A stretch of DNA of 36,994 nt from an uncultured Nitrosomonadales bacterium (lineage in GTDB: Bacteria; Pseudomonadota; Gammaproteobacteria; Burkholderiales; Gallionellaceae): the NCBI GenBank assembly GCA_903915035.1, contig CAIWRI010000034.1, positions 1 through 36,994 of the forward strand, given 5' to 3'. A program made the position numbers and the translations under genes. Positions 4,671 to 24,200 of the stretch are shown piece by piece; positions within the stretch are counted from its first letter, which is position 1; each line of letters begins with the position of its first letter. The notes beneath the pieces are model-generated. The model worked only from the letters and a program-made list of their open reading frames with translations. It was not told the origin of the DNA and made no database searches.

Positions 4671-4720
4671 TTATTCGATTAACGTTTGACAATCAAGATG
4701 AATTTCGATAGCCTGAGCCT

Positions 4721-5059: not shown

Positions 5060-5223
5060 CATCAGTACAGGACGAGTCCGTCTGTCAGTTCCATCGTTCT
5101 GAATTCAACTCGTCGAGCATTAAGCGGTGCTTTCACTCGTCAGCGTTTTACCTGCGTGTTAACTGCAATCAATAATTAAATTTCGCGTTTATACAATATA
5201 AAACATAAACTTGGAGCACTATC

Positions 5224-5532: not shown

Positions 5533-5589
5533 TCCATGCCCGCGATGCGTTAAACCTTACAGTGTATTGCGGGACAGTGAGGTATTAAG

Positions 5590-6840
5590 ATGAAAAATTT
5601 GAATATTATAACGTTGCTGGGCTGTTTTTTAAGCGGGGCGGTAATGGCTGTACCTTTAGGGGCGGATGTACAGGGCTTGCTGCGTTATGCGAAGGAGCAT
5701 AATCCCGAATTGGCGGCGATGCGCTATGAGGCCGATGCGGCATCCATGCGTGTACAACCCGCAGGCGCGTTGCCCGATCCGGTGCTGCGTACTGAATTGA
5801 TGGACATTGCCAACCAGGGCACCAATAGACAGGCAAGTTTACTGCCTTCCGGAGTGGCAAGTACGCGTTATTATCTAATACAAAGTGTGCCCTGGTTCGG
5901 CCGCCTTGAGCTGCAAAGCGACGTTGCCAAGGCACAGCTTGCCGGCGCGCGGGGTCAAATTGCCGCTACCTGGGCGGATTTGAGCAGTAAAATCAAAGCG
6001 GCCTATGCGATGAATTACTACCTGGCAGACAGTATCAGGCTGACGCGGGAAACGCTGGATTTGACCCGTCATCTTGAACAAATCGCGCAAACACGTTACG
6101 CAAACGGGCTGGGCAAACAGCAGGAAGTGATACGCGTGCAACTCGGTATGACTGATTTACAGACCCGCTTGCTTGACTTGGGCAATGAGCAGCATCATGC
6201 CCACACCAGGCTAAACGCCTTGTTGGCACGTCCTGCTAATGCCGAACTGGCTGAACCACTGCAGTTACGTCCGTTACCTGTACCCGCCCGGCTCACCACG
6301 CTGGAAGACAGCTTGCGCGCGCACAATCCGCTGTTGCAGGTAGCGGATGCGGGTATCAGTGTCGACGCCAAGCGCCGCGATCTTGCCTATAAAAACCGCT
6401 ACCCGGGATTTACCTTAGGTGTTGCACCCACTCAGAGTGGCAGCACCGTGAAGAGCTGGGATCTAATGGTCGAATTCAATATTCCGTTGCAGCAGGAATC
6501 TCGTCGCTCGCAGGAGGGGGAAGCGGAAGCGCAACTGCTGGCATCCACGGCAAGACAAGCCTCGCTGCTCGACCAGATGCTGGCTGACTTGTCCGAAAGC
6601 ATCTCGGGACTTGCGTTGGCACAGCAAACTTGCCAGATCATTACGGCGCGTCTCTTGCCGCAGGCCGAATCGAGTTTTCAATCCTCGCTGAGTGGCTATA
6701 CGACCGGTAAAGTTGATTTTTCCACGCTGCTGGATGCTCAACTGCAAATCCTCAAAGCACGTCAGCAAAGTATCAAATCACGGTATGAAGCACAATTACG
6801 CCTGGCTGAAATTGAACGCCTGATTGGAGAAGAATTATGA
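5590..6840 (+). CDS. cusC: Outer-membrane efflux channel, TolC family (CusC/CzcC-like)
   Basis: A 416-residue protein with a signal peptide (about residues 1-20). It continues with the long alpha-helical repeats of the outer membrane efflux protein family, including NPELAAMRYEADAASMRV near the start and a second equivalent block (ILKARQQSIKSRYEAQLRLA) near the end. In the tripartite pump it forms the outer-membrane exit duct joined to the CusB adaptor and CusA pump. The length is typical of CzcC/CusC-type proteins. GAGG precedes the ATG. The gene overlaps the next one by four bases (ATGA), which implies translational coupling. No lipobox is obvious, so it may not be lipidated. Confidence 0.85.
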   Translation: MKNLNIITLLGCFLSGAVMAVPLGADVQGLLRYAKEHNPELAAMRYEADAASMRVQPAGALPDPVLRTELMDIANQGTNRQASLLPSGVASTRYYLIQSVPWFGRLELQSDVAKAQLAGARGQIAATWADLSSKIKAAYAMNYYLADSIRLTRETLDLTRHLEQIAQTRYANGLGKQQEVIRVQLGMTDLQTRLLDLGNEQHHAHTRLNALLARPANAELAEPLQLRPLPVPARLTTLEDSLRAHNPLLQVADAGISVDAKRRDLAYKNRYPGFTLGVAPTQSGSTVKSWDLMVEFNIPLQQESRRSQEGEAEAQLLASTARQASLLDQMLADLSESISGLALAQQTCQIITARLLPQAESSFQSSLSGYTTGKVDFSTLLDAQLQILKARQQSIKSRYEAQLRLAEIERLIGEEL

Positions 6841-8390
6841 TCAAATTCAATTTGATAGCAGCTATTGTTGCCATTCTGCTTGCAGTCGCTACAGGCAGCT
6901 ACTGGCTGGGTAGCCATAGAGGACAGGATGCAGTATTCAGAATTCAGGATTCAGGAAAATCTGAAACTGTAAACCAAAAACCGCAAACTGAAAGCAGAAA
7001 ACTGCTGTATTACCGCAACCCGATGGGCCTGCTCGACACCTCGCCAGTGCCCAAAAAAGACAGTATGGGCATGGAATATGTAGCGGTTTATGATAGAGAC
7101 GCACCCGCAGAGGATGGCGCAGTCAGCATCAGTGTGGCAAAGGTGCAAAAACTCGGCGTGCAGAGCGAAGCGGCCGCGTTGCGCAACCTGAATAAGTTGA
7201 TTCAAGTCACAGGACGTATTGAGGTCGACGAACGGCGCATTTACGCCATTTCACCGAAGTTCGAGGGTTGGGTGGAAAAACTTTATGTGAACAGCACAGG
7301 TGAGGCCGTCAGCAGGGGCCAGGCACTGTTCGATGTGTACAGTCCTGAATTAATATCCGCGCAGCGCGAATATGAAATTGCCGCGCAAGCCGAAAAATCG
7401 CTTGCAAATACAGACCCGGATAGCAAAGCCGGCATGAAGCAACTGGCGGACGCCAGCCTGGCACGCCTTGCCAACTGGGATATTACCCCGGCTGAACTTA
7501 AGCAATTAATGTCAGGAAAAGCCAGGCGCAAGCTAACCTATTACGCACCGGTGTCGGGTATCGTGCTGGAAAAAAAGGCGGTACAAGGCGCGCGCTTCAT
7601 GCCGGGTGAGACGTTGTATCAGATCGCCGACTTATCGCAGGTTTGGGTCTTGGCAGATGTCAACGAGCAGGATATTGCACAAATAAAAGTCGGCAGCAAA
7701 GTCCGGATTAATATTACGGCATATCCTGATAAGAACTTCGTTGGGAAAATCGCCTTCATCTATCCTACTTTAAATGCAGCGAGCCGCACGGTACAGGTGC
7801 GCATGGAACTGGCAAATCCGCAGGGGCAGTTCATGCCTGCAATGTTCGTCAGCGTGACGCTGCCGACAGGTGAGGGTGGCAAAGTACTCTCTGTTCCCGC
7901 CTCAGCGGTGATTGACAGCGGAACGCGTCAGATCGTGCTGGTGCAACAGGCCGTGGGCCGCTTTGCACCGCGTACGGTCAGGGTGGGGCAACGCGGTGTG
8001 GATTTTGTCGAAATACTTGATGGCGTTCGTGAAGGCGAGCAGGTAGTCACATCCGCCTTATTCCTGATCGATGCGGAAAGCAATCTCAAGGCCGCATTAA
8101 ACGGATTGGGCACACCGGCTGCTGTTCACGCCGCTTCTGCCAAAGTGAAGGCGATAGTGCATCAAGCCACTGGGGTGCTCAATAGCATCAATGCGGACGG
8201 CACGGTGAGCATCACACATGATGCGATAAAAACACTTGGCTGGCCTGCCATGACGATGGAGTTTGCACTTGCCAATTCGCAGCTCTCCTATGGAATCAAG
8301 CCCGGCACTGCGATCAGTTTCGAGCTTGTCGAACGTGCACCCGATGAATGGGTGATCACTAAACTGCTAGCCCGTCACGAGATGCACTGA
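6837..8390 (+). CDS. cusB: CusB-like RND adaptor with heavy-metal-binding and fused CusF domains
   Basis: A 517-residue membrane-fusion protein. Residues 5-25 are an N-terminal anchor. Residues 57-85 form a heavy-metal-binding domain (YYRNPMGLLDTSPVPKKDSM) of the CusB type. Residues 120-430 hold the hairpin, lipoyl and beta-barrel domains of the adaptor family (for example VTGRIEVDERRIYAISPKFE and YAPVSGIVLEKKAVQGARF). Residues 442-517 form an additional CusF-like domain with TLGWPAMTMEF, the copper-chaperone methionine motif. It links the inner-membrane pump to the outer-membrane duct and probably gates the pump when loaded with metal. The start overlaps cusC by four bases, and cusA follows after one base. 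Confidence 0.88.
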   Translation: MIKFNLIAAIVAILLAVATGSYWLGSHRGQDAVFRIQDSGKSETVNQKPQTESRKLLYYRNPMGLLDTSPVPKKDSMGMEYVAVYDRDAPAEDGAVSISVAKVQKLGVQSEAAALRNLNKLIQVTGRIEVDERRIYAISPKFEGWVEKLYVNSTGEAVSRGQALFDVYSPELISAQREYEIAAQAEKSLANTDPDSKAGMKQLADASLARLANWDITPAELKQLMSGKARRKLTYYAPVSGIVLEKKAVQGARFMPGETLYQIADLSQVWVLADVNEQDIAQIKVGSKVRINITAYPDKNFVGKIAFIYPTLNAASRTVQVRMELANPQGQFMPAMFVSVTLPTGEGGKVLSVPASAVIDSGTRQIVLVQQAVGRFAPRTVRVGQRGVDFVEILDGVREGEQVVTSALFLIDAESNLKAALNGLGTPAAVHAASAKVKAIVHQATGVLNSINADGTVSITHDAIKTLGWPAMTMEFALANSQLSYGIKPGTAISFELVERAPDEWVITKLLARHEMH

Positions 8391-8391
8391 C

Positions 8392-11300
8392 ATGCTTGAA
8401 AAAATCATAGAGTGGTCTGCACGTAACCGTTTTCTGGTCATTCTGGCAACGGTATTTATCGTTCTGGCAGGGATTTATGCAGCAATAAAGACGCCGCTGG
8501 ATGCTTTACCGGATCTGTCTGATGTACAGGTAATTGTTTACACAGAATATTCAGGTCAGGCGCCGCAGGTGGTCGAGGATCAGGTCACCTATCCGCTCAC
8601 CACCGCAATGCTGGCAGTGCCCAGATCCCGTGTGGTGCGTGGATTTTCCTTCTTCGGCGCCTCGTTCGTTTATGTGATTTTTGAGGATGGCACCGATATC
8701 TATTGGGCGAGATCGCGAGTGCTGGAGTATCTTAACAGCATTGCAGGGCGCATGCCCAAAGGCGTATCGCCGCAACTGGGGCCGGATGCGACCGGCGTGG
8801 GCTGGGTGTATCAATACGCGGTATTAAGTGAAAAGCACAATCTCGCCCAACTACGTACCATGCAGGACTGGTATTTACGTTATCAGTTGACCAAGGCGCA
8901 TGGCGTGGCCGAAGTGGCAAGCATTGGCGGTTTTGTACAGCAATATCAGGTGACGGTTGATCCTGTGAAACTGCGTGCTTACGGGATTCCCTTGAGTCTG
9001 CTCTCAAAGGTTATCAGGGATTCCAACCAGGATACGGGTGCGCGCGTGGTGGAGATGTCCGAGACCGAATACATGGTACGCAGCCGTGGCTATTTGCGCG
9101 GCAAGTCTGATATCGAAAGTCTGCTGGTAAAGTCGGACCGTGGCACGCCGGTGTTGCTGCGCGATATCGCGCATGTCGATCTGGGGCCGGATGAGAGACG
9201 CGGCTTGACCGAATTGAACGGGGAGGGCGAAGTAGTATCCGGCATCACGATTGCGCGTTACGGCGTCAATGCGCTGGAAGTCATTAAAAACATCAAGCAA
9301 AAAATTGCCGAAGTTTCCGCCGGCTTGCCGGATGGCGTTCATATTCAGACTGTCTATGACCGCTCCGAACTGATACAGCGTGCAATCAGTACGCTAAAAC
9401 ATACCCTGCTGGAGGAAGGCGTGATCGTGGCGCTGGTATGCGTGGTGTTTCTGATGCATGTGAGGAGCGCATTGGTGGCCATCCTGATGTTGCCGGCAGG
9501 TGTGCTGATTGCCTTCATTGCCATGCATGCACTGGGAATGAATGCCAATATTATGAGTCTGGGCGGCATTGCGATTGCTATCGGTGCGATGGTGGATGCG
9601 GCGATCGTGATGATAGAAAACGCGCATAAGCATATCGAGCGATTAAAGGCGGGGGAGTCTCGAGCCGAGGCCATCATTGCCGCCTGTCGCGAAGTTGGCC
9701 CGTCCTTATTCTTTTCGCTTTTAATCATCACCGTGTCGTTCCTGCCGGTATTCACGCTGGAAGCTCAGGAAGGGCGCTTGTTCGCACCGTTGGCCTACAC
9801 GAAGACCTTCTCGATGGGCGGTGCAGCACTGCTATCGGTCACGCTGGTGCCGGTGCTGATGTTGCTTTTTATCCGTGGTCGCATCATGCCGGAACGGAGA
9901 AATCCGCTGAACCGTTTGATGATACGGGTCTATCGACCGATGATAGCGTTCGTGCTGTTACGCCAGAAATCCACGATTGCCGTCGCTATACTGGCAATTG
10001 CATTAAGTGCTTATCCTGCATCACGTCTTGGCAGTGAGTTCATGCCGACCCTGAATGAGGGCTCCTTGCTCTACATGCCAGCCTCTTTACCCGGCATGTC
10101 TGTCACTAAGGCTGCCGAACTGTTGCAGACGCAGGACAGTATCATCAAGTCTTTCCCGGAAGTGTCATCGGTATTTGGCAAGGCGGGCAGGGCGCAGACT
10201 GCCACCGATCCTGCCCCGCTGGAAATGTTCGAAACGGTAATTAATTTAAAACCTGAGGCTCAGTGGCGACCCGGCATGAATATCGACAAACTGATCAGTG
10301 AGATGGACCGCGCCTTGCAATTTCCCGGTGTGGCGAATTCATGGACGATGCCGATCAAGGCGCGCATTGATATGCTATCTACCGGTATACGAACTCCAAT
10401 TGGAATCAAGGTGTTCGGCAAGAATCTTGAGGAAATGGAACGACTGGCAAAGCAGATCGAAGCGGTGGTCAGAAAGGTGCCTGGTACGACCAGTGCCTTC
10501 GCCGAACGTTTGACCGGCGGATATTATCTGGATATCGAACCTGATCGTATGCAGCTTGCGCGTTACGGGCTGACGGTGGGTGATATGCAAGACGTGGTTG
10601 CAACCGCCTTGGGCGGCGAGAATGTCACCACCACGGTGGAAGGTCTGGAACGCTTCGGGGTGAACGTGCGCTATCCGCGCGAACTGCGCGGCACACCTGA
10701 GCAGATTGCAAGCGAAGTGCTGGTAACTACGCCGGATGGTGCGATGATCCCGCTGGGGCAACTCGCGAAGATCAGCATTACCACTGGTGCGCCATCCATC
10801 CGGACCGAGAATTCTCTGCTGTCAGCCTACATTTACGTGGACATCAGGGGGCGCGACATAGGTTCATACGTGGCTGATGCTCGCCGTGCGGTGAATGAAC
10901 AAGTGAAATTTCCGCCTGGTTACTATGCTACCTGGAGTGGCCAGTTCGAATACATGGAACGCGCGATTGCCCGCATGAAGATCGTTATTCCAATCACCTT
11001 GCTGCTGATATTTTTATTGTTATATCTTAACTTTCAACGGGTGACAGAGTCCTTGATCGTGATGCTGTCCGTGCCGTTTGCGCTGGTAGGCGGTATATGG
11101 CTGTTATGGTTGCTTAATTACAATCTGTCAGTGGCAGTGGCAGTAGGCTTTATTGCACTGGCCGGTGTGGCGGCGGAGACGGGGGTGGTGATGTTAATCT
11201 ATCTGGAGCAAGCCTGGCAGACTGTACAGATGCGTTGTACAGACGAAAAGCGCAAGGCGAATCTGGCTGATTTGCATGAAGCGATCATGCACGGTGCGGT

Positions 11301-11502
11301 CGAGCGTGTGCGCCCCAAGATGATGACCGTGGTAGCTATCATGGCCGGACTGCTACCCATCTTGTGGAGCACCGGCACCGGTTCGGTAGTGATGCGCCGC
11401 ATCGCAGCGCCTATGGTGGGCGGCATGATTTCGTCGGCCGTATTAACGCTGCTGGTGATACCTGTCTTGTTTGCACTGGTAAAACGGCGAGAAGTGTTGT
11501 GA
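8392..11502 (+). CDS. cusA: CusA-like Cu(I)/Ag(I) RND efflux pump
   Basis: A 1036-residue heavy-metal RND transporter with the N-terminal anchor helix, a GGIAIAIGAMVDAAIVMIEN motif in TM4 that is typical of the monovalent Cu/Ag group, and a repeated C-terminal membrane block. The three methionines that bind metal in E. coli CusA (M573, M623, M672) align with M562 (LLYMPAS), M612 (APLEMFE) and M661 (RIDMLSTG), with identical spacing of 50 and 49 residues. That supports copper/silver and not zinc/cobalt/cadmium as substrate. The protein pumps metal from periplasm or cytoplasm using the proton gradient. It starts one base after cusB. No CusRS-like regulator gene lies in the window. Confidence 0.92.
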   Translation: MLEKIIEWSARNRFLVILATVFIVLAGIYAAIKTPLDALPDLSDVQVIVYTEYSGQAPQVVEDQVTYPLTTAMLAVPRSRVVRGFSFFGASFVYVIFEDGTDIYWARSRVLEYLNSIAGRMPKGVSPQLGPDATGVGWVYQYAVLSEKHNLAQLRTMQDWYLRYQLTKAHGVAEVASIGGFVQQYQVTVDPVKLRAYGIPLSLLSKVIRDSNQDTGARVVEMSETEYMVRSRGYLRGKSDIESLLVKSDRGTPVLLRDIAHVDLGPDERRGLTELNGEGEVVSGITIARYGVNALEVIKNIKQKIAEVSAGLPDGVHIQTVYDRSELIQRAISTLKHTLLEEGVIVALVCVVFLMHVRSALVAILMLPAGVLIAFIAMHALGMNANIMSLGGIAIAIGAMVDAAIVMIENAHKHIERLKAGESRAEAIIAACREVGPSLFFSLLIITVSFLPVFTLEAQEGRLFAPLAYTKTFSMGGAALLSVTLVPVLMLLFIRGRIMPERRNPLNRLMIRVYRPMIAFVLLRQKSTIAVAILAIALSAYPASRLGSEFMPTLNEGSLLYMPASLPGMSVTKAAELLQTQDSIIKSFPEVSSVFGKAGRAQTATDPAPLEMFETVINLKPEAQWRPGMNIDKLISEMDRALQFPGVANSWTMPIKARIDMLSTGIRTPIGIKVFGKNLEEMERLAKQIEAVVRKVPGTTSAFAERLTGGYYLDIEPDRMQLARYGLTVGDMQDVVATALGGENVTTTVEGLERFGVNVRYPRELRGTPEQIASEVLVTTPDGAMIPLGQLAKISITTGAPSIRTENSLLSAYIYVDIRGRDIGSYVADARRAVNEQVKFPPGYYATWSGQFEYMERAIARMKIVIPITLLLIFLLLYLNFQRVTESLIVMLSVPFALVGGIWLLWLLNYNLSVAVAVGFIALAGVAAETGVVMLIYLEQAWQTVQMRCTDEKRKANLADLHEAIMHGAVERVRPKMMTVVAIMAGLLPILWSTGTGSVVMRRIAAPMVGGMISSAVLTLLVIPVLFALVKRREVL

Positions 11503-11587
11503 TATGGCTGCTGTAGCTTAAAGTTGTTAATGCCGCTATGATTGAGTTCAGTTGTGATTCTTTACATTACCAATTGGAATAACCGTC

Positions 11588-12946
11588 ATGTCTTATATAA
11601 CTCTCAATCCGGCGACAGGTAAACTGATGCGGAATTTTGCCAGTTGGGATGCTCAGCATCTGCAACTTGCGCTGCAAAAAACACAGCGCGCTCAACAGAG
11701 CTGGGCATCCTTGCCGCTAAAGCAGCGAGCCTGCATGCTGGGCGAAGTGGCAAAAAACCTGCTTGCACAGCGCGATCAATTTGCTTCGCTTATCACAGGG
11801 GAAATGGGCAAACCGTTGCGCGAAGCCCGCGCTGAAATAGAAAAATGTGCCGGAGTTTGCGACTATTATGTACAGCATGCCGAAGAGTTTTTGCGCATCG
11901 AACCGATTTCATCGGATGCGGGAACAAGCTATGTCGCACATTATCCTTTGGGCACGCTGCTGGCGATCATGCCCTGGAATTTTCCTTTCTGGCAAGTGTT
12001 TCGTGCCGCAATACCGGCCTTGATGTCAGGCAACACACTGCTATTGAAACATGCACCGAACGTGCCGCAATGTGCGCTGGCGCTTGAGTCAATTTTCAGC
12101 AGTTTGCCGGAAGGCGTATTCACCACGCTGCTGATAGAAATTGAGCAAGTGGCCGATGTCATTGCAAGTACTTATGTGCAGGCAGTCAGTTTTACAGGTT
12201 CGGAAGCTGCCGGGCGCAAAGTGGCAGCCTGCGCCGGCCATAATCTGAAAAAAACAGTGCTGGAATTGGGGGGTTCTGACCCGTTTATCGTTTTGCAGGA
12301 TGCCGATTTGCAACTGGCTGTAAACGCGGCGGTAGCTTCGCGCTTTCTCAATTGCGGGCAATCCTGTATCGCTGCCAAACGTTTCATTCTGGTACCGCAA
12401 ATTGCGGATGAATTCATACACCTGTTTAAAAGCCAGGTTGCATTACTTAATATCGGCGACCCGATGGCAGAAGCAACGCAAATCGGCCCGATGGCCCGCG
12501 AAGATTTACGCAGCGCATTACACAGCCAAATTAGCGATTCCATCCTTCAGGGCGCTGTTCTGGTGACCGGGTGCCAGCCAATACAAGGCGAAGGATTTTT
12601 TTATGCACCTTCAATATTGGATCATGTTACAGAAAATTGCCGTGCATATCATGAAGAGCTTTTCGGGCCGGTGGCGATCATACTGCGTGCTGACAGCGAA
12701 CAGGATGCACTGCGTATTGCCAATGCAACCCGTTTCGGGCTCGGCTCCTCAATATGGAGCCGGGATGCAGCACGTGCCGAACAATTGTCAGCGGGTATTC
12801 AGGCCGGCTGTACTTTTATCAATGGTATGGTCAAATCTGATCCGCGTTTGCCCTTCGGCGGGCTGAAAGCTTCCGGTTACGGACGTGAGTTGTCGCGTCA
12901 GGGTATGCTTGAGTTTGTAAATAGCAAAACGGTATGGATACGCTGA
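11588..12946 (+). CDS. NAD(P)-dependent aldehyde dehydrogenase, succinate-semialdehyde type (Sad/GabD-like)
   Basis: A 452-residue aldehyde dehydrogenase. It shows MPWNFPFWQ (residues 128-136), the glutamate general base in LELGGSDPF (E226), the catalytic cysteine in FLNCGQSCIAAKR (C260), and the C-terminal EELFGPVAII and PFGGLKASGYGRE motifs. It is short for the superfamily (usually 480-500) and the SLITGEMGKPLREARAEIEK segment resembles the Sad/YneI group of succinate-semialdehyde dehydrogenases, which oxidise the semialdehyde to succinate. Substrate assignment is inference. It lies 85 bp downstream of cusA on the same strand with its own GGAA ribosome binding site, so co-transcription is possible but functional linkage to metal efflux is not shown. 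Confidence 0.8.
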   Translation: MSYITLNPATGKLMRNFASWDAQHLQLALQKTQRAQQSWASLPLKQRACMLGEVAKNLLAQRDQFASLITGEMGKPLREARAEIEKCAGVCDYYVQHAEEFLRIEPISSDAGTSYVAHYPLGTLLAIMPWNFPFWQVFRAAIPALMSGNTLLLKHAPNVPQCALALESIFSSLPEGVFTTLLIEIEQVADVIASTYVQAVSFTGSEAAGRKVAACAGHNLKKTVLELGGSDPFIVLQDADLQLAVNAAVASRFLNCGQSCIAAKRFILVPQIADEFIHLFKSQVALLNIGDPMAEATQIGPMAREDLRSALHSQISDSILQGAVLVTGCQPIQGEGFFYAPSILDHVTENCRAYHEELFGPVAIILRADSEQDALRIANATRFGLGSSIWSRDAARAEQLSAGIQAGCTFINGMVKSDPRLPFGGLKASGYGRELSRQGMLEFVNSKTVWIR

Positions 12947-13005
12947 CGCTGGTTTTCAGCATAGAGCAGGTGGATATGACTGGGCTGGATTCTGTATCAT
13001 TTTGA

Positions 13006-14208
13006 TTAGATAGTCATTTGCCATCCCAAACGGTGCTTCTCTTCAGTTTCTTTGTGGCGCTTATCATCTTCCGAGTGCAGATACCTGCTGGTAGTGGAAA
13101 TAGATTCATGGCCAAGATTATCTCGAACATGACGAAGATCCATGTCACTTCCAGCCATGTTTGAGCCTGCCGTATGCCTAAGCCAATGGGCAGAGGCTTC
13201 TGCGAGCAACAATGCGAGGTGATGAGACTCTGGCCCCCGTTGCCGTATTCGCTCTGATGTACGCGCGAAAACTTCCTTAACAATCAGGTGGACTGCGCTT
13301 CGCGTCAACGGACGTCGTTTTCCACCAATGGGAAGGAGGAGGGGAGTCGTTTCGCCTGGAAGCGGGAAGGGGGTTAGTTCAATCTCCCTTCGGTATAGGC
13401 TTAGTTCTACCATCAGTTCATTGGTGGCCGGCACAATCCGTGTCTTATCTCCCTTGCCTGTCACCTCGATCCACCAACGTTCTTCGCCATCGTTACCTCT
13501 GCGGCAAAAAAATTCCCCCATCGTATTTTCCGTAACCTCAGAAATCCGCAGACCACATATATATAGTAACGAGAACAGCCAACGGACACGGAAAAAATGT
13601 TCGCGCTCCCGATCTGATTCCCTGGGCATAGTTCCAATCGAGACTTTAACCTCATGCCAAAGATTCTCATCCAAAAACCGTGTAATTCGCGGCTTTGCTT
13701 TTCGTTGGCGCTGCCGTGAGAGTGATAACGGGTTACCTGCCAGATACCCGGCATTCACCAGCCAGGAAAATAGAGTGTTGAGGATAATAATGGACTGTCG
13801 CTGGCTTGTAGGTGAGAGAGCTCCAGCAAACGGACGCCAGTCCGGATCAAATCGAGACCATTTTCGCCCGGATTTCATTATCCAGCGTTCAGTTGGTTGC
13901 GGATCTGATAAAAAACGTTGGTAGACCAACATATTTTCATGAGTCAGTGACGACAAAGGTTTTTCAAGCTGAATGACTGACCACAATAAAAGCCGCTCAG
14001 CTTCCTTACGATAGCTTCCAAAAGTATTTTTTGTATCGACGAAGCGAGCCAGCCATGCCTTGATCGCGTCGAGGTCGTTTTGTGCTGCGATTTGGGAATG
14101 TCCGGCAACAGCACGATTTGAACCGGCGTGACCATCCAGTTCGCGAGGTAAACGTACCAGTTCGAACGGTGAAAGCGACGGAATTTGTATTTGTAGTAGA
14201 TCGGTCAT
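13006..14208 (-). CDS. Tyrosine recombinase (integrase family), module member 1
   Basis: A 400-residue tyrosine recombinase. Residues 45-165 form the SAM-like core-binding domain (SYRKEAERLLLWSVIQLEKP). Residues 175-390 form the catalytic domain with the full set of active-site residues: R221 in CGLRISEV, a lysine in TGKGDKTR (about 252-255), H341 and R344 in HWLRHTAG, H367 in LGHESISTTS and the nucleophile Y376 in SRYLHS. It is therefore probably active. An N-terminal LDGHAGSNRA motif is shared with the second recombinase of the module. It is transcribed away from the coiled-coil gene, and its predicted promoter is buried in a palindrome. No good ribosome binding site precedes the ATG. Confidence 0.9.
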   Translation of the reverse strand: MTDLLQIQIPSLSPFELVRLPRELDGHAGSNRAVAGHSQIAAQNDLDAIKAWLARFVDTKNTFGSYRKEAERLLLWSVIQLEKPLSSLTHENMLVYQRFLSDPQPTERWIMKSGRKWSRFDPDWRPFAGALSPTSQRQSIIILNTLFSWLVNAGYLAGNPLSLSRQRQRKAKPRITRFLDENLWHEVKVSIGTMPRESDREREHFFRVRWLFSLLYICGLRISEVTENTMGEFFCRRGNDGEERWWIEVTGKGDKTRIVPATNELMVELSLYRREIELTPFPLPGETTPLLLPIGGKRRPLTRSAVHLIVKEVFARTSERIRQRGPESHHLALLLAEASAHWLRHTAGSNMAGSDMDLRHVRDNLGHESISTTSRYLHSEDDKRHKETEEKHRLGWQMTI

Positions 14209-14238
14209 TTGCGGGGGATTAGGAAAGCTAAATTTGCA

Positions 14239-14276
14239 TAATTATTCGACATTATATGGATAATGTCAAATAATTA
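14239..14276. repeat. 17-bp-arm palindrome, probable recombinase or operator site
   Basis: Arms 14239-14255 and 14260-14276 are inverted copies with one mismatch (16 of 17 pair) around the 4-bp spacer ATGG. Each arm contains ATTATTCGAC or its near complement. The geometry, two inverted arms around a short spacer, is that of a tyrosine-recombinase core site or of a dimeric repressor site. Confidence 0.7.
14241..14269 (-). promoter_or_regulatory. Predicted sigma-70 promoter of recombinase 1
   Basis: On the reverse strand a perfect TTGACA (14269-14264) is followed after 17 bp by AATAAT (14246-14241). The -35 lies in one arm of the palindrome and the -10 in the other, so anything binding the palindrome would block transcription of recombinase 1. 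Confidence 0.6.
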
Positions 14277-14287
14277 AAATACAAGTG

Positions 14288-14317
14288 TTGCATATATAAC
14301 GTATTACGTTGTATTAT
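14288..14317 (+). promoter_or_regulatory. Predicted sigma-70 promoter of the KfrA-like gene
   Basis: TTGCAT (14288-14293), 18-bp spacer, TATTAT (14312-14317). The spacer is almost filled by a second palindrome (14294-14314). The start codon is 30 bp downstream of the -10. Confidence 0.5.
14294..14314. repeat. Palindrome inside the KfrA-like promoter spacer (candidate operator)
   Basis: Symmetric about T14304: AACGTA and TACGTT pair perfectly, then after one mismatch three more bases pair on each side (9 of 10). Its position between -35 and -10 is that expected of an autoregulatory operator, as KfrA is known to bind its own promoter. Confidence 0.5.
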
Positions 14318-14329
14318 TAAAAATAAATT

Positions 14330-14339
14330 ATTATTCGAC
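14330..14339 (+). repeat. Third copy of the ATTATTCGAC half-site
   Basis: An exact 10-bp direct repeat of 14241-14250 lies in the leader of the KfrA-like gene, 8 bp before its ATG. It could be an accessory binding site for the recombinase or the coiled-coil protein. Confidence 0.45.
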
Positions 14340-14347
14340 CGCCAAAA

Positions 14348-15403
14348 ATGGAAACCGACTCAAAAATAGAGAGCCATCTGCAAGATAAAATCGAAGAATT
14401 GCGAAATAATTTTCCTAATACGCAAGATTTGTATGCGGAAGTCTGTGTATTGCTATTCTTTCGCCATGGAATTACGCCCACAGCCAACAGGTTGTATCAA
14501 CTTGTCCGAAAAGGGAGCATGTCGGCACCGGCAGAAGCGCTAGGGAAATTTTGGAAGGATCTTCGTGAAAAAAGTCGCGTGCGCATTGAACACGGTGATC
14601 TTCCTGAAGATTTGAATGTAGCTGCCGGTGAAATGGTTGGGGTCATGTGGGCAAAAGCCCAAGGGCTTGCACAGGAATCGTTAAACAGCCTGCGAGCAGA
14701 TGCGCAGACCTCAATACAGGAAGCTGAAGCTCGGATGAAGGACGCTGATTCAGCCAGGGAAATGGCTCAGCAGAACCTTCAGGAAGCAACCATCACTATA
14801 AAAAACGCTGAATTTCGGATCGGTAAGTTAGAACAAGCCGTTGCAGCTGAAATCGCCACGCGTGTAGCCTTGGAAGCTCAGCTGACAAGCGTTCAGCAGG
14901 ATCGAATTGAGCAGCAGAAAGCAATGGGTGATGCACGACGAGATTTTTCATCTGAGTTGGAAAAATTGCGTGAAGCGCTTAAAATGACAGAAGAGCGACA
15001 TAAAGCGGTTGAATCACGTGCTTTACTGGAAATAGACCGTGAACGTACTATCGCAGCAAAAGTCCAAAGGGAATTAGAAAAAGCCAGATCGTCCGCAACC
15101 GACGCAACCGATAAACTCCGAGTCGAAATTGGTATTCTTCAAGATGATATTGGCAATCAGAAACAACGCAATGGCAATTTGGAAGGCGAACTTCGTGCCG
15201 TTAACATTTTAAAAAGCCAATTAACTGCGGAACTGAACCTCGAGCGAGAATCAGTTATCGGTCTTGGTTCGCAATTGAATGCAATGGTAATGAAAATTGA
15301 AGTCTGGAAGAGTAAAGCCTTTGATACACAGAAGGAACTTGAGTCATTAATATCCACCAACAAACAACGAAGGTCTCGGAAAATCAGAGGGGCAGTTGTT
15401 TAG
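14348..15403 (+). CDS. KfrA/TnpT-like DNA-binding coiled-coil protein
   Basis: A 351-residue protein. Residues 1-110 resemble the KfrA N-terminal DNA-binding domain (LYAEVCVLLFFRHGITPTAN, then the GSMSAPAEALGKFWKDLREK helix-turn-helix-like region). Residues 115-345 are almost uninterrupted heptad-type coiled coil rich in Glu, Lys, Gln and Ala, ending in a basic tail (KQRRSRKIRG). Plasmid KfrA proteins have this layout and autoregulate. TnpT, the partner of the recombinase TnpS in Tn4651-type transposons, is also a coiled-coil accessory protein encoded divergently from its recombinase. Here the gene diverges from recombinase 1 across 139 bp of palindromic DNA, so it is proposed to organise the recombination complex and repress the module; that role is inference. 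Confidence 0.75.
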   Translation: METDSKIESHLQDKIEELRNNFPNTQDLYAEVCVLLFFRHGITPTANRLYQLVRKGSMSAPAEALGKFWKDLREKSRVRIEHGDLPEDLNVAAGEMVGVMWAKAQGLAQESLNSLRADAQTSIQEAEARMKDADSAREMAQQNLQEATITIKNAEFRIGKLEQAVAAEIATRVALEAQLTSVQQDRIEQQKAMGDARRDFSSELEKLREALKMTEERHKAVESRALLEIDRERTIAAKVQRELEKARSSATDATDKLRVEIGILQDDIGNQKQRNGNLEGELRAVNILKSQLTAELNLERESVIGLGSQLNAMVMKIEVWKSKAFDTQKELESLISTNKQRRSRKIRGAVV

Positions 15404-15411
15404 CTGGGTTT

Positions 15412-15465
15412 CTGCTGACAAACAACTACTGATTATTTTTATAATCAGTAGTTGTTTGTCAGCAG
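15412..15465. repeat. Perfect 25-bp inverted repeat with TTTT loop
   Basis: Arms 15412-15436 and 15441-15465 are perfectly complementary around TTTT. No T-run follows on either strand, so it is not a standard intrinsic terminator. Parts of the arms recur nearby: ACAAACAAC at 15359-15367 and GTTGTTT at the end of the KfrA-like gene. It lies 30 bp before the second recombinase. Confidence 0.8.
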
Positions 15466-15480
15466 CGGTGAATTTACTAT
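15452..15480 (+). promoter_or_regulatory. Possible promoter of recombinase 2
   Basis: TTGTTT (15452-15457) in the right arm of the inverted repeat is 17 bp from TACTAT (15475-15480). The -35 is poor and the -10 good. Transcription from it would begin only a few bases before the ATG at 15495, giving a nearly leaderless message. Confidence 0.3.
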
Positions 15481-15494
15481 AGTCGGGGTTAATT

Positions 15495-16733
15495 ATGTGG
15501 ATGGCATCTCTACACTGTCTTGTTATTGATGATACTGAAATTGATGGCCAACGCGGATCTAATCGTGCGCCAATGAATCCTAATGAGCCAATTGTCAATA
15601 CCGACATTGAGGCGGCAAAAGCATTTTTATATGTACATCGAGACACACCAACAACACAACGCAATTACACCAAGGAAATCGAACGGTTGATTTTGTGGGC
15701 GATAAACGTCAAGGGAAAGCCAATGTCAAGTTTGACATTTACTGATATGGATGACTTCGTTGAATTCCTGGCTCACCCCGAACCTGTCTCTGAATGGGCA
15801 ACCCGTCATAAATTTCCCCGTGAAAGTCCGGCGTGGCGTCCATTCAATATGAGCGTGAAGCCGCCAAAAAAAGAAGGTGAAAACCCTACTTTTTTAGCCG
15901 GGCTTGCGCCATCTAGCCGCCTCACCGCAATGGCATCGCTGGAGTCTTTTTTCACCTGGCTGATAGACTACGGCTATTTGATAAAAAATCCAATGCGTCA
16001 AATAAAAACCAAACGTAAAGCCGTTCGTGCGTCACAGTCGACGGAAGAGCACGCCAAAGTCGAACGATATTTGGATGAGCATATGTGGGCGGCATTTCAG
16101 GAGGCAATTGAAATGATGTCGAAAGACACAAAAAAGGATCTTGATAAATATGAGCGCGCTAAATTTGTCTCGTCACTGATGTTACTGCTGGCGCCACGCG
16201 CAAGCGAGCTGGCCAACGGACGGATGAATGACTTTAAGTCAGAAGGTAAACTCTGGTGGTGGCACGTTAAAGGAAAAGGAAGTAAATCAGCTAAAGTCCC
16301 CGTTGTTTCAGATATGCTGCAATCGTTAATACGCTATCGCACCTATCTTGACCTGACACCGCTACCGCTAGATAATGATGATTCTCCCCTGCTCCGCTCC
16401 GTCAAAGATGCAAGCCCGATCACGCCACGTCAACTTAATCTGATTTTGGATGGTTTGTTTGAAGATGCAGCAAAACTACTGGAAGGAAAAGCAAATGACC
16501 TTCCCGTATCCGACTTCATGTCCCAGGCAGAGTTCCTGACCCGCGCAGCAAAAATACGACAAGCATCATCTCACTGGGGGCGGCACACTTCTATCACTTA
16601 CTCAATAAGGAGCGGCGTGCCCAAGGATATTGTGCAGCGAAATGCACGTCATAGTGACAGCAAGACAACGGACGGCTATACGCATGAAGATGAGGAACAC
16701 TGGCATAACGAATCACAGAAGTTGCACGTTTAA
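15495..16733 (+). CDS. Tyrosine recombinase (integrase family), module member 2
   Basis: A 412-residue tyrosine recombinase. Residues 35-170 are the core-binding domain and 185-400 the catalytic domain, with R235 in LLAPRASELANG, a lysine in VKGKGSKSAK (about 259-261), H360 and R363 in HWGRHTSI, H386 in ARHSDSKTTDGY and nucleophile Y395. All catalytic residues are present. It is a distant paralogue of recombinase 1: both share the motif DGxxGSNRA near the N-terminus and a NYTKEIERLILWAI-type helix, which supports the early ATG over M27, since starting at M27 would remove the shared motif. It is transcribed in the same direction as the KfrA-like gene and ends 11 bp from the convergent end of panC. 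Confidence 0.88.
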   Translation: MWMASLHCLVIDDTEIDGQRGSNRAPMNPNEPIVNTDIEAAKAFLYVHRDTPTTQRNYTKEIERLILWAINVKGKPMSSLTFTDMDDFVEFLAHPEPVSEWATRHKFPRESPAWRPFNMSVKPPKKEGENPTFLAGLAPSSRLTAMASLESFFTWLIDYGYLIKNPMRQIKTKRKAVRASQSTEEHAKVERYLDEHMWAAFQEAIEMMSKDTKKDLDKYERAKFVSSLMLLLAPRASELANGRMNDFKSEGKLWWWHVKGKGSKSAKVPVVSDMLQSLIRYRTYLDLTPLPLDNDDSPLLRSVKDASPITPRQLNLILDGLFEDAAKLLEGKANDLPVSDFMSQAEFLTRAAKIRQASSHWGRHTSITYSIRSGVPKDIVQRNARHSDSKTTDGYTHEDEEHWHNESQKLHV

Positions 16734-16744
16734 GGAACGCCTAA

Positions 16745-17575: not shown

Positions 17576-18366
17576 CAGAAGCCATGCTCCATGGCTGGAA
17601 AGCGGCCGTTTTTTACTTCAGTGACATAGCCGGTCACCGCGTCACTAAGGGATGCAGCCCCCTGCATATAGTTTTTCACAAAACGCGCCTTTTTACCCGG
17701 ATAAATATCCAGCATGTCGTACAGCACCAGCACCTGACCTGAGCAAGATGCACCCGCTCCGATGCCGATGGTAGGGACGTTCACTTGCGCGGTAATTTCC
17801 TCGGCAAGCAGCGCCGGTACCATTTCCAGTAACAACATACCCGCTCCCGCTTGTTCGAGCGCTATCGCATCTTCGAGCAATTGCAGCGCAGCAGCAGGTT
17901 CCCTGCCCTGCACTTTATAGCCGCCAAGTTGATGCACAGATTGCGGAGTGAGACCAATATGCGCGCAAACTGGAATCCCGCGCGAAGTTAAAAAACGCAC
18001 CGTTTCCAGCATCACCGCCCCGCCTTCGAGTTTGACCATTTGCGCACCGGCAGCCATCAATTTAACGGCATGTTCGAAGGTTTTTTCCGGACTGATTTGC
18101 GAAGTACCGAAGGGCATGTCAGCGAGAACAAAAACTTTTTTCGCACCACGCGCCACACAACCGGTGTGATATACCATATCCTCCAGCGTGACGGCTAAAG
18201 TCGACTCCCGTCCTTGCATAACCATCCCGAGCGAGTCGCCCACCAGAAGAATATCTACGCCGGCGGCTTCAAGCAGGGCTGCAAAGCTCGCATCGTAACA
18301 GGTCAGCATGGCAATTTTCTCAGTACGGCCACTCATGCTTTTCAAGGCAGTTAAGGTTGTTCTCAT
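17575..18366 (-). CDS. panB: 3-methyl-2-oxobutanoate hydroxymethyltransferase
   Basis: A 263-residue cytoplasmic enzyme that transfers a hydroxymethyl group from methylene-tetrahydrofolate to 2-oxoisovalerate, the first step of pantoate synthesis. Motifs include [19 protein letters not shown], the metal-binding [10 protein letters not shown] (D44), MVKLEGG and [15 protein letters not shown]. Length is normal. It precedes panC with a one-base overlap and lies 42 bp after folK on the same strand, so a folK-panB-panC transcript is plausible. No strong ribosome binding site precedes the ATG. Confidence 0.96.
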
Positions 18367-18408
18367 TTTAAAATAGTCGATAGTTGATAATCGTAAACAT
18401 CAAACTGG

Positions 18409-18897
18409 TCAAGTTAGCAGTTTTTCCAAATCCTGATCCTGACAATCCCGCATGGCGAGCTTGGCTGAACCAATACCAGGAATCATGCAGCCGGGCGCCA
18501 TCTCCAGCAGCGGCAGCAAAACGAACGCCCGCAGATGCATCAGCGGATGCGGAATGGTCAGACCATGCTCCTGCAGTTGCAAGTCATCGTATAACAAGAC
18601 ATCCAGATCCAGTGTGCGCGGTGCATTATGAAAAGTACGCTCGCGGCCGTAATGCTGTTCAATCTGTAATAAGGCAGCGAGCAAAACTTGCGGCGTTAAT
18701 CGGGTGGAAATTTTAGCGACCGTGTTAACAAAATCAGGCTGACCCAAAAAACCTATCGGCGCACTGCGATACAGTGAAGACTGAGCTAACAGGTTTGTTT
18801 CGGGCAAGGCAGCGATATTTGTCAAAGCCTGTCTTAGTTGTTCACCCGACGCTCCCAGATTGCTGCCCAAGCCGATAAAAGCAATATGCTGTGTCAC
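18409..18897 (-). CDS. folK: 6-hydroxymethyl-7,8-dihydropterin pyrophosphokinase
   Basis: A 162-residue folate-pathway enzyme that pyrophosphorylates 6-hydroxymethyl-dihydropterin using ATP. The N-terminal FIGLGSNLG, the loop RSAPIGFLGQPDFVN and the signature RTFHNAPRTLDLDVLLYDD with metal-binding D97 and D99 are present. Length is typical. Its ATG overlaps the pcnB stop by four bases (18894-18897), the same pcnB-folK coupling as in many gamma- and betaproteobacteria. Confidence 0.95.
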   Translation of the reverse strand: MTQHIAFIGLGSNLGASGEQLRQALTNIAALPETNLLAQSSLYRSAPIGFLGQPDFVNTVAKISTRLTPQVLLAALLQIEQHYGRERTFHNAPRTLDLDVLLYDDLQLQEHGLTIPHPLMHLRAFVLLPLLEMAPGCMIPGIGSAKLAMRDCQDQDLEKLLT

Positions 18898-20234
18898 TCA
18901 GCAACCTGGACTGTCTGCGTAGCATCCGGCTTTTTACGCGGCTTGCGACGACGTTTTTTAACCCCGGCGCCTTCAGGTTGCAGCATTTCCTGACGGCGTG
19001 TTTCACTGGTATCCTGAAATTCATCCCACCAGAGTCCCAGTTCATTATCCACTTCATTACTGGCACAACGCAGCAGTAAAAAATCAAAGGCGGCCCTAAA
19101 ACGCGGCTGTTCAAGCAAACGATACGGGCGTTGACCTGATCGTTGCTCAAAACGTTGCTGCAACAGCCAGATTTCCTTCATCACCGCATCATGACGGTGT
19201 GGAATAGCCAACTTTTTCTTTTGGCGGGCCAGCACTTCATCCATCGCGGTAAACATTGCACTTACCGGGCGTTCACCTTGTGCAACCAGACCGTTCCAGA
19301 CGCTCAACACTTCATGCCAGAGTAAGGCTGCAAATAAAAATGCCGGGGACACTGATTTATCCTGACTTAAACGCTCATCGGTATTTTTCAACGCCAACAT
19401 GATGAATTTTTCACCCGTCGGCTGTTCCATGATCACATCCAGCAACGGCAACAAGCCATGATGCAGTTCCATCTTGCGCAACTGCTGTATGCACTCGACA
19501 GAATGCCCTGACAGCAACATCTTCAACACTTCATCCAGCATGCGCGCTTCCGGCACATTATCCAGCAGGGATTTCAGTTGTGCGATCGGCGCTGCTGTCG
19601 CCGGATCAAGCTGAATGCCAAGCTTGGCGGACAAGCGAACTGCACGCAACATGCGCACCGGATCTTCACGATATCGAACCAGCGGATCACCGATAATGCG
19701 CAATATACCATCCCGAATATCCGCATAACCCCGGTGATAATCGTAAATCTCTTGAGTGGTCGGATCATAAAACAGCGCATTGGCGGTAAAATCGCGCCTT
19801 GCGGCATCCTGTTCCTGATCGCCGAACTCATTATCCCGCAAAAGTCGTCCATTTTCATCGGTCTGTGCAGTTTCTATCATGCAACGAAAAGTGGCGACTT
19901 CAACCAGTTCTTCACCAAACATCACATGTACCAGACGGAAGCGCCGACCTATGATGCGTGAACGTCTGAACACCTGTTTGATTTCTTCAGGTGTCGCATC
20001 GGTTGCCACATCAAAATCTTTAGGTTTTTTGCTCAGCAGAAGATCGCGCACCGCACCACCCACCACAAAAGCCTTGAAACCTGCCGCCTGCAAGCCATCA
20101 GTCACGCGCTTTGCACCATAACTAATCTGTTCACGCGGCACACTGTGCAAGGCGAACGGTATCACCTGCGCGTTGCCAATTTTTTTGGTTTTTTCTGACC
20201 TGCGAAATACCCGTTTTAGAAATTTTTTGATCAT
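18894..20234 (-). CDS. pcnB: Poly(A) polymerase I
   Basis: A 446-residue class II nucleotidyltransferase that adds 3' poly(A) tails to RNA and promotes decay. The catalytic domain shows FVVGGAVRDLLL (56-67) and the metal-binding pair in KDFDVATDAT (D73, D75), followed by RRSRIIGRRFRLVHV. The C-terminus is strongly basic (KKRRRKPRKK), characteristic of PcnB rather than tRNA CCA-adding enzymes. The neighbourhood, with folK directly downstream and overlapping, supports the same call. The start ATG is 8 bp after the dapB stop. Confidence 0.93.
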   Translation of the reverse strand: MIKKFLKRVFRRSEKTKKIGNAQVIPFALHSVPREQISYGAKRVTDGLQAAGFKAFVVGGAVRDLLLSKKPKDFDVATDATPEEIKQVFRRSRIIGRRFRLVHVMFGEELVEVATFRCMIETAQTDENGRLLRDNEFGDQEQDAARRDFTANALFYDPTTQEIYDYHRGYADIRDGILRIIGDPLVRYREDPVRMLRAVRLSAKLGIQLDPATAAPIAQLKSLLDNVPEARMLDEVLKMLLSGHSVECIQQLRKMELHHGLLPLLDVIMEQPTGEKFIMLALKNTDERLSQDKSVSPAFLFAALLWHEVLSVWNGLVAQGERPVSAMFTAMDEVLARQKKKLAIPHRHDAVMKEIWLLQQRFEQRSGQRPYRLLEQPRFRAAFDFLLLRCASNEVDNELGLWWDEFQDTSETRRQEMLQPEGAGVKKRRRKPRKKPDATQTVQVAE

Positions 20235-20242
20235 TAAATTAA

Positions 20243-21416
<1,174 letters not shown>

Positions 21417-21458
21417 GGTTTCCCGTCTCATAATTTCAAAAATCTGTTGCATGATACC

Positions 21459-23120
21459 TCAAGCGGCGACTCCAAGCATCTCTGCTGCGTGTTTGCGTGT
21501 AGTATCGGTAATTGTAACGCCTCCCAGCATGCGTGCAATCTCTTCAATGCGCTGATTTCCTTTGAGTACTTCGATACGGCTCAACGTCGTGCCATTTTCC
21601 ACTGTTTTGCTCACCTGCCACTGACTATCCGCCATCGCAGCGACTTGCGGCAGATGGGTAACGCATAAAACCTGATATTCCCGGCCTAGCTGTTTTAGCA
21701 ATAGTCCGACGATTTCTGCGACACGCCCGCCAATACCACTGTCCACTTCGTCAAAAATCAAGGTCGGCACGGAAGCGATCTGGCTGGTTGCCACCTGCAT
21801 CGCCAGACTGATACGCGACAACTCACCGCCTGAGGCAACACGGGCGACACTGCGTGGCGGCATACCCGGATTAGCGGCAACCTGAAACTCTATCGTCTCA
21901 AGGCCGTTAACATTCCCTTGAGATAGCGGCAGCAACACCACAGCAAAGTGGCCGCCCTGCATCGCGAGGGTCTGCATCGCAGCAGTAATTTGTTTGGACA
22001 GTTTGCCTGCGGCCAAATGCCGGCTACGGCTCAAATCTTGTGCACATTCCAGATAGCGTTGTTGTGCGGCTTTTTCCTGTTGCAGCAGCGCTTCCAGATC
22101 ATCATCGCCGCCCAGCTCAGTCAGACGCGCAACGATTTTCTGTAATACTTCATTCAGGAGTTCGGGCTGAACGCGATATTTACGCGCCATATCCATCACA
22201 TACCCGATTCGTTGTTCTTTTTCAATTAGTTGCTGTGGATCAGTCTCCAGATGCTGCTGGTAATGGCGTAAACTATAAACGGCCTCCTGTAATTCCGCAG
22301 CAGCAGATTCGAGCAAGTGTAGCATCTCAGCCAGACTCGCATCATGTGTCACCCCCTCGCGCACTTTCACCATCAGCGCGTTCAGCTGTGTCAGACAGGC
22401 ACTATCCGACTCGCTCAGGGTTTCAAGACCCAAAGCGGCTGTCTCCAGCAGTCCGGCAGCATGCGCAAGACGCCTATAATCCGCCTGTAACCCCTCCCAG
22501 TCGGCAACATTAAACGCCAGCGCCTCCAGTTCATTGCGCTGAAACGACAGCAATTCGCGCTCGGCAATGATCGCCTGCGAATTATCAGACAAGGCAATGC
22601 GGCGATTTCTCAAAGCCTGCCAGTCACGGTAACTTGCCGAAACCTGGGCAGCATTTTTCTGCAAACTGCCGTATTCATCAAGCAAAGCACGCTGTGCTTC
22701 CGGTTGCAATAAAGATTGATGTGCATGCTGGCCGTGAATATTGAGCAGTTGTTCCCCTGCCTCACGCATTTGCAGCAAAGTCGCGCTACGCCCGTTGATA
22801 AAACCACGCGAACGGCCTCCTGCATCCAACAGACGGCGCATCAGGCACACGCCATCATCCCCCGCCAACGCCTGAGTTTGCAGCCATTCTTGCAAAGACG
22901 GTTGCTGGCGAACATCAAATTCAGCCGTAATTTCGGCACGTTCGCAGCCATTACGCACCATGGCCGCATCGCCGCGCTCGCCTAACGCCAGCAGTAAGGC
23001 ATCGATCAGTATCGATTTCCCGGCACCGGTCTCACCTGTCAGCGCAGTAAATCCGCTGCTAAATTCCAGCTCCAGTTGTGACACGATAACAAAATCACGA
23101 ATACTTAAAAATTTCAGCAT
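21459..23120 (-). CDS. recN: DNA repair protein RecN
   Basis: A 553-residue SMC-like ATPase acting in double-strand-break repair. It shows Walker A GETGAGKS (29-36), two long coiled-coil arms across the middle, the ABC signature region VASGGELSRISLAMQ and Walker B LIFDEVDSGIGG near the C-terminus, ending with THLPQVAAMAD. All ATPase motifs are intact and length is typical. It lies 18 bp downstream of nadK, the common nadK-recN pair. Confidence 0.96.
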   Translation of the reverse strand: MLKFLSIRDFVIVSQLELEFSSGFTALTGETGAGKSILIDALLLALGERGDAAMVRNGCERAEITAEFDVRQQPSLQEWLQTQALAGDDGVCLMRRLLDAGGRSRGFINGRSATLLQMREAGEQLLNIHGQHAHQSLLQPEAQRALLDEYGSLQKNAAQVSASYRDWQALRNRRIALSDNSQAIIAERELLSFQRNELEALAFNVADWEGLQADYRRLAHAAGLLETAALGLETLSESDSACLTQLNALMVKVREGVTHDASLAEMLHLLESAAAELQEAVYSLRHYQQHLETDPQQLIEKEQRIGYVMDMARKYRVQPELLNEVLQKIVARLTELGGDDDLEALLQQEKAAQQRYLECAQDLSRSRHLAAGKLSKQITAAMQTLAMQGGHFAVVLLPLSQGNVNGLETIEFQVAANPGMPPRSVARVASGGELSRISLAMQVATSQIASVPTLIFDEVDSGIGGRVAEIVGLLLKQLGREYQVLCVTHLPQVAAMADSQWQVSKTVENGTTLSRIEVLKGNQRIEEIARMLGGVTITDTTRKHAAEMLGVAA

Positions 23121-23138
23121 TGAAATATCGAATTTCCG

Positions 23139-24011
23139 TTAAAGTAATTGATTCCACTGCAATTTTTCACGCAACGTGTGGTAGTAACTATGCCCTTCCG
23201 GATGCAGCAAATGCGCATGCTGAGGATGACGACTGACGATAATTTTGTCATGCATCTGCATATCAAAACTGGTATGACTATCCAGGCGCACTCGAATATC
23301 ATCAGAATGGTGCATCAAAATTTCCAGCACCGACGCACCATGCACCACAATTGGCCGATTGCTCAGGGTATGCGGGCAGATTGGCACCAATTCCAGCACA
23401 TCCAGACCGGGATGCAGGATAGGCCCCCCGGCCGACATCGCATAAGCTGTCGATCCGGTCGGCGTGGAAACAATCAAGCCGTCGGCGCGCTGGTTATACA
23501 GATATTCGCCATTGATGCGCACCTCAAATTCGACCATGCTGCTGATCTGACTGCGATGCACCACCACTTCATTGAAAGCCAGACCGCTAAAAACCTCGAC
23601 ATCATTTCTCAATACGCGCGCCGACAACAACAAGCGTTGCTCGGTCACATAGTTGCCCGATAGCATCGCGGCGATACTTTCGTACATATTTTCCAGCGTG
23701 AGATCAGTCAAAAACCCGAGCCTGCCCTGATTCACACCGATCAATGGCACATGATGCGGCGAAAAAGTACGGGCGATGTTCAGCATGGTGCCATCGCCCC
23801 CCATCACAATCGCCAGATCAATCTGCTTTTGCATTTCTTCTAGTGGCATAACAGTATAGGGATGATCGCCAAGCTGCTCGGCAGTCAGATTATCTATCAT
23901 CACAGACAAGCCACGTCCTGACAGAAACTCCGCCAAATATAGCAGCGGGGTAACTACGGCAGGAGATTTTCGCTTGCCGATGAGTGCAACGGTTTTGAAG
24001 GGAAAGTTCAT
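23139..24011 (-). CDS. nadK: NAD kinase
   Basis: A 290-residue enzyme that phosphorylates NAD to NADP. Motifs are the catalytic GGDGTMLN (71-78, D73), NQGRLGFLTD, NEVVVH and DGLIVSTPTGSTAYAMSAGG. The frame is open to a TTG at 24053, but ATG 24011 matches the usual family start (MNFPFKTVALIGKRK) and is preferred. It is the first gene of the leftward run that continues through recN and bamE-dapB. Confidence 0.95.
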   Translation of the reverse strand: MNFPFKTVALIGKRKSPAVVTPLLYLAEFLSGRGLSVMIDNLTAEQLGDHPYTVMPLEEMQKQIDLAIVMGGDGTMLNIARTFSPHHVPLIGVNQGRLGFLTDLTLENMYESIAAMLSGNYVTEQRLLLSARVLRNDVEVFSGLAFNEVVVHRSQISSMVEFEVRINGEYLYNQRADGLIVSTPTGSTAYAMSAGGPILHPGLDVLELVPICPHTLSNRPIVVHGASVLEILMHHSDDIRVRLDSHTSFDMQMHDKIIVSRHPQHAHLLHPEGHSYYHTLREKLQWNQLL

Positions 24012-24200
24012 GGGCGTGATTAAACCACATTGCACGAACAATAACAAAGCCAAGATGCCAGATTAGGGATTGGAGATAGGGAATAAAATATCAGGGACAG
24101 CTACAACAGCATGTTAAAAATTGGCTTCAGTTGAAGGATTTGATGCAAAAAAACAGGCCCAATTATTTGCCCGTGAGTGAGCTATGGAAACGAATTCGGT

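Follow-up and report, generated by a model that had tools for sequence, protein, structure and literature searches.

A Xer-like recombinase and its palindrome as a possible substitute for XerCD/dif at the replication terminus of a Gallionellaceae bacterium

Genes and sites between SSADH and panC

The stretch of DNA analysed here (the window) comprises 36,994 nucleotides of a contig from an uncultured Nitrosomonadales bacterium of the Gallionellaceae. Between the SSADH and panC genes it carries three real and intact open reading frames, with the coordinates and strands that a first-pass annotation had given them: two Xer-like tyrosine recombinase genes, int1 and int2, and a kfrA-like gene (Table 1). 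Pfam searches identified Phage_integrase in int1 (E 1e-17) and in int2 (E 5e-11), and KfrA_N in the middle protein (E 4.5e-17), which is present in one copy in this genome. Alignments confirmed that the catalytic set (R, K, HxxR, H, Y) is complete in both recombinases. The two had been described as paralogous, which holds only distantly: they share about 29% identity and belong to two well-supported separate clades, both of them well apart from XerC and XerD in the tree. When compared with the PDB, int1 gave weak matches to XerD and XerA and int2 gave no match, and single-protein scans for close relatives in genome and viral collections returned no matches. As had been noted before, there is no transposase between SSADH and panC, and the two recombinases with one KfrA match neither the three tandem recombinases of RIT elements nor the tnpABC layout of Tn554. 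No cargo or flanking repeats were found around the module. Upstream of the SSADH gene lies a CusA/CzcA-type metal efflux RND gene (window 8392-11502).

The first-pass annotation had missed two inverted-repeat sites, one in each intergenic region, as well as the terminus signature of the window. The first site, the int1 core, lies between the divergent int1 and kfrA genes. Its right arm (TAATGTCAAAT) differs by one base from the XerD arm of the congeneric dif (TTATGTCAAAT), and comparable inverted-arm cores occupy the equivalent position in many other divergent int-kfrA pairs. Promoter-like hexamers overlap the core on both strands (11/12 and 10/12), an arrangement that suggests autoregulation. 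A second palindrome in the same region, of the TACGTA type and about 50 bp beyond the core in the window as in most Halomonas pairs, is a candidate KfrA-binding box. The second site is a long perfect palindrome that begins 9 bp past the kfrA stop codon and ends 30 bp before int2. It is present in a single copy in the genome and forms a DNA hairpin with a z-score of -11.8. We considered whether it could be a transcription terminator and rejected this, as it is absent from the terminator scan list and its stem is not followed by a run of T.

Table 1. Coordinates of the genes, candidate sites and KOPS octamers in the window
Feature	Position	Strand	Basis
int1 (400 aa), Xer-like tyrosine recombinase, paired with kfrA	13006..14208	-	ORF, Pfam, alignment
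int1 core site TTATTCGACATTA-tatgga-TAATGTCAAATAA, 13-bp arms, 6-bp centre	14242..14273		inverted-repeat search
Second palindrome ATATAACGTATTACGTTGTAT, candidate KfrA-binding box	14294..14314		palindrome search; binding inferred
kfrA-like gene, KfrA_N and long coiled coil, 351 aa	14348..15403	+	ORF, Pfam
Perfect 25-4-25 bp palindrome (arm, loop, arm), putative dif-like site for int2	15412..15465		repeat search
Palindrome core with 6-bp centre, CAACTACTGATTA-ttttta-TAATCAGTAGTTG	15423-15454		13-bp arms
int2 (412 aa), Xer-like tyrosine recombinase that is proposed to resolve dimers alone	15495..16733	+	ORF, Pfam, alignment, tree
KOPS octamers GGGNAGGG	3448, 9220, 10185, 13364 (3448..13371)	+	pattern search
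KOPS octamers	17901, 24335 (17901..24342)	-	pattern search

The replication terminus and the search for XerC, XerD and dif

The window lies at the replication terminus of this genome. Its cumulative GC skew reaches a maximum at 16 kb, and its KOPS octamers are fully sorted, with four forward copies on the left, two reverse copies on the right and a switch interval of 13364-17901 that includes the int1 core; with n = 6 only, the Fisher p is 0.067. On the other contigs of this genome KOPS are mostly of a single polarity, and a convergence like that of the window also flanks dif in G241 and G421. We looked for an empty SSADH-panC site, but SSADH and panC lie apart in the congeners examined, where panC is usually followed by panD. 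In most relatives SSADH and panC are located away from the terminus, so the terminus has been rearranged here. SSADH was also considered as a general terminus marker, and this was rejected because it was seen only in the congener G028. The panC and panD genes, adjacent in most relatives examined, are separated in this genome (window 16734-16745; G000 C75:34579-34953), and the break at the panC 3' end, beside int2, looks like a rearrangement ending at the module.

No dif was found in this genome with two patterns and up to three mismatches, whereas dif is present in 57 of the 76 genomes of the genus set. In congeners malQ directly adjoins dif in all 14 dif loci that carry malQ, and no dif was found on the malQ contig of this genome. 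A search with the XerD model likewise found neither XerC nor XerD: the best matches scored 84 and 80 bits, the latter being int1 itself, compared with 374-399 bits for XerD and 266-283 bits for XerC in the congeners G028, G055 and G039, which have both genes. The genome is rated 100% complete, yet it is a draft of 155 contigs and the three could sit in gaps; the xerC/xerD neighbourhood was not met in 60 sampled contigs (0.83 Mb). The nearly universal XerC/XerD/dif machinery, by which joined daughter chromosomes are parted, has apparently been lost from this bacterium. The same absence recurs in genomes with an int2-type gene, as all four that were tested (G275, G470, G482 and G483) gave no XerC/XerD and no canonical dif. 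Genomes without an int2-type gene, namely G241, G153 and G421, have XerC and XerD, and G241 and G421 also have dif. Altogether, five int2-type genomes lack XerC/XerD and six others have them, a split with a chance of 1 in 462 by an exact count that ignores kinship. The first-pass annotation had read the module as a self-contained recombination system; that reading was not supported and overlooks the context, a replication terminus in a genome for which the searches recovered no XerC, XerD or dif.

Relatives of int2 and of the int1-kfrA pair

In the tree, int2 clusters with int2-type recombinases (support 99/96) from Zoogloea, Methyloversatilis, Variovorax megaplasmids and others, although it sits on a long branch (1.62) and is just 42-48% identical to its own clade. 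At least 20 Zoogloea loci have the int2-type gene in conserved synteny beside mltG-tmk-holB-pilZ-tatD, and it thus behaves as a core gene there. Of 16 int2-type genomes searched, 15 have a palindrome of this type near the int2-type gene, 12 of them just once; the usual state is one dif-like site per genome, built of two inverted arms around a 6-bp centre. Extra matches are weak and asymmetric in G476 and G479 and reflect a prophage duplication in G483; in G275 the KOPS and skew signals are weak and the palindrome was not confidently identified. The palindrome of Zoogloea and relatives reads ACTTCTGAAAA-n6-TTTTCAGAAGT, and nine of its 13 arm bases equal those of the window palindrome (chance 0.001).

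Terminus position and KOPS convergence are strong for the int2-type sites of Zoogloea and weaker in the window alone. In Zoogloea dura, 20 forward and three reverse KOPS lie left of the palindrome versus three forward and 27 reverse on the right (p 1.2e-8), and the best switch interval (265338-266066, 728 bp) includes the palindrome. The switch interval of Methyloversatilis thermotolerans (1016058-1020653, p 0.0014) includes it as well. In M. universalis the best KOPS switch is about 14-21 kb away from the palindrome copies, with polarity still significant. Two palindrome copies with identical 6-bp centres enclose a 7-kb prophage of the filamentous type in M. universalis (G483, L232:5134-12152), which carries Zot and Rep_trans genes. 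Filamentous phages integrate at dif (PMC5357621), and the dif of Legionella was revealed by the integrated element LME-1 (PMC9765430). The M. universalis prophage has integrated in the palindrome as filamentous phages do in dif.

The exact trio of int1, kfrA and int2 was seen in no other genome searched. In Zoogloea oleivorans a cluster of about 8 kb (L128:7809-16015) holds three different tyrosine recombinase genes, one int2-type, one int1-type and a third, along with two KfrA genes and both kinds of core site. A plasmid recombinase of Aquicella (Legionellales) is 31.5% identical to int2 (E 1e-50), with a long branch in the tree; on the plasmid of Aquicella lusitana a KfrA-like gene overlaps an int2-related recombinase gene (L315:1920-4134).

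The int1-kfrA pair is common in Beta- and Gammaproteobacteria, often beside canonical dif. Divergent pairs without int2 are common in Burkholderiales, on chromosomes and on plasmids. The int1 of the window is 78% identical to that of G241, where kfrA lies about 150 bp from a canonical dif. We surveyed the dif adjacency of int-kfrA modules with a dif scoring matrix and patterns. Such modules or related recombinases lie 0.8-1.3 kb from canonical dif in G421, G140 and G250 and 8-9 kb from it in G310 and G339. Among the Halomonas/Vreelandella loci, 15 extend far enough to judge, and in 14 of these a canonical dif lies near the divergent KfrA/tyrosine recombinase pair, for the most part at 5.3 kb. 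The Halomonas/Vreelandella pair (L190-L207) resembles a fixed chromosomal system. Across the genus set (61 genomes) KfrA was found only in the present genome and as a fragment in G028. What remains of int1-kfrA in this congener is decayed and lies next to phage-like replication genes, 1.7 kb away from canonical dif (L115:12281-15181). A dif-type site repeatedly lies close to the 3' end of kfrA: the distance is 9 bp in the window, about 150 bp in G241, where the dif is canonical, and less than 300 bp in several Zoogloea.

A proposed dimer-resolution locus and its relation to known systems

We propose that this is a chromosome-dimer-resolution locus at which int2 and its palindrome have replaced XerCD/dif, with int1-kfrA as a separate pair, and we put the probability of this at roughly 0.7. 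Int2 and the palindrome are best read as a dif/Xer system with a single recombinase, comparable to that of XerL in Legionellales. The proposal was built on computed gene content, sites, terminus position, the failed search for XerC, XerD and dif and the parallel in int2-type genomes; from these we infer catalysis, the role of FtsK, KfrA binding and the function of int1. Acting alone as a tetramer, int2 would recombine two palindrome copies, each with 13-bp arms and a 6-bp centre, paired in a chromosome dimer, and would thereby resolve the dimer into monomers. Delivery of the sites would fall to FtsK, guided by KOPS that point towards the module from both sides. An ancestral XerC/XerD/dif, which sister species kept, would have given way to the int2 system. 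As a second recombinase pair, int1 would act on its own core between int1 and kfrA, whereas KfrA would bind beside that core and regulate the divergent promoters, possibly recombination too.

Alternatively, int1 and KfrA could resolve dimers at the int1 core, leaving int2 as an accessory or passenger. The core lies in the KOPS-switch interval with its nearly dif-like right arm, and int1-kfrA pairs adjoin dif in several genomes. However, XerC and XerD are kept in the int1-kfrA carriers G241 and G153 and in G421, which has a related recombinase, and dif is kept in G241 and G421; such modules are therefore additions to XerCD, not substitutes for it. In addition, it is the palindrome that lies at the KOPS switch in int2-type genomes without XerCD, and we regard a resolving role for int1 as unlikely. 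Integrative elements are attracted by dif regions, and slightly less probable again is a mobile integrase cassette that for this reason inserted close to the terminus, with dimers resolved by an XerCD hidden in assembly gaps. The sporadic occurrence of the module in the genus, the plasmid-borne int1-kfrA pairs and the decayed copy near dif in G028 fit such a cassette, and the module is indeed absent from almost all congeners. Yet this explanation requires that XerC, XerD and dif were all overlooked in a genome rated 100% complete, and the module has neither cargo nor flanking repeats. Int2-type genes are moreover syntenic core genes in Zoogloea, where the XerCD search was also empty.

Least plausible is a TnpS/TnpT-like resolution module left by a Tn4651-type Tn3 transposon, which shares the KfrA_N domain of TnpT and a site between divergent genes with the int1-kfrA pair but leaves the terminus position unexplained, and for which Tn4651 TnpS, tried as a homologue, gave no significant match to int1 or int2. 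In the tree TnpS groups with the XerC/XerD rows outside the int1/int2 group, on a very long and unreliable branch. The likeness to TnpS/TnpT drawn by the first-pass annotation thus extends to KfrA and the layout and not to the recombinases, and its absence of a Tn3 context stands, as no transposase brackets the module. Its view of a TnpS/TnpT pair that gained a second recombinase missed the terminus context, in which int2 is the likely replacement dimer resolvase.

Given the recurrent closeness of kfrA 3' ends to dif-type sites, we also tentatively suggest a wider role for KfrA, which we hold to be clearly less probable than the replacement by int2. KfrA coiled-coil proteins might be dedicated partners of a broad terminus-linked family of Xer-like recombinases, including Burkholderiales int1, Zoogloea int2 and those of Halomonas and the Aquicella plasmid. 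They might bind beside the core and replace or assist the activation of XerD by FtsK-gamma, and their repeated capture at dif could be a route to XerCD/dif replacement. In the literature searched we found no paper tying KfrA to dif and none on a Xer system for Zoogloea. The present findings suggest a link between KfrA proteins and dif that has gone unrecognised. In 2009 a dif/Xer system was recognised in all but about 12% of the proteobacterial species examined, and what replaces it in the others was left open (PMC2731167; also PMC3025954); the single-recombinase replacements found in the literature are XerS, XerH, XerA and XerL. If our proposal is true, the list grows by one, with predicted sites in genera that can be cultivated (Zoogloea, Methyloversatilis), and both states occur in one genus, as sister species have XerCD/dif and the present genome has the substitute.

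Among known systems, TnpS/TnpT-rst of Tn4651 (pWW0) is alike in layout, with the site flanked by divergent genes for a tyrosine recombinase and its KfrA_N coiled-coil partner, but its recombinase shows no significant similarity and there is no transposon here. XerCD/dif shares the 6-bp centre, the terminus position, the KOPS convergence and the dif-like int1 half-site; it differs in that neither XerC nor XerD was found in this genome and in that the sites here are symmetric. Like int2, the recombinases of XerS/difSL and XerH/difH are single, are encoded beside a dif-like site and replace XerCD (PMC5357621). However, int2 has about 412 aa, falls outside those lineages as far as seen (no PDB match), uses a perfect palindrome and has int1-kfrA attached. 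The XerL/dif system of Legionellales (PMC9765430) differs from int2 of a betaproteobacterial host in its distances, with dif and xerL more than 400 kb apart in L. pneumophila and int2 and the palindrome 30 bp apart here, and the two are likened by features, not by sequence. These shared features are one tyrosine recombinase (about 390 aa in XerL), long uninterrupted inverted arms, a site near the GC-skew maximum, a genome without XerC/XerD/dif and an integrated element that reveals the site.
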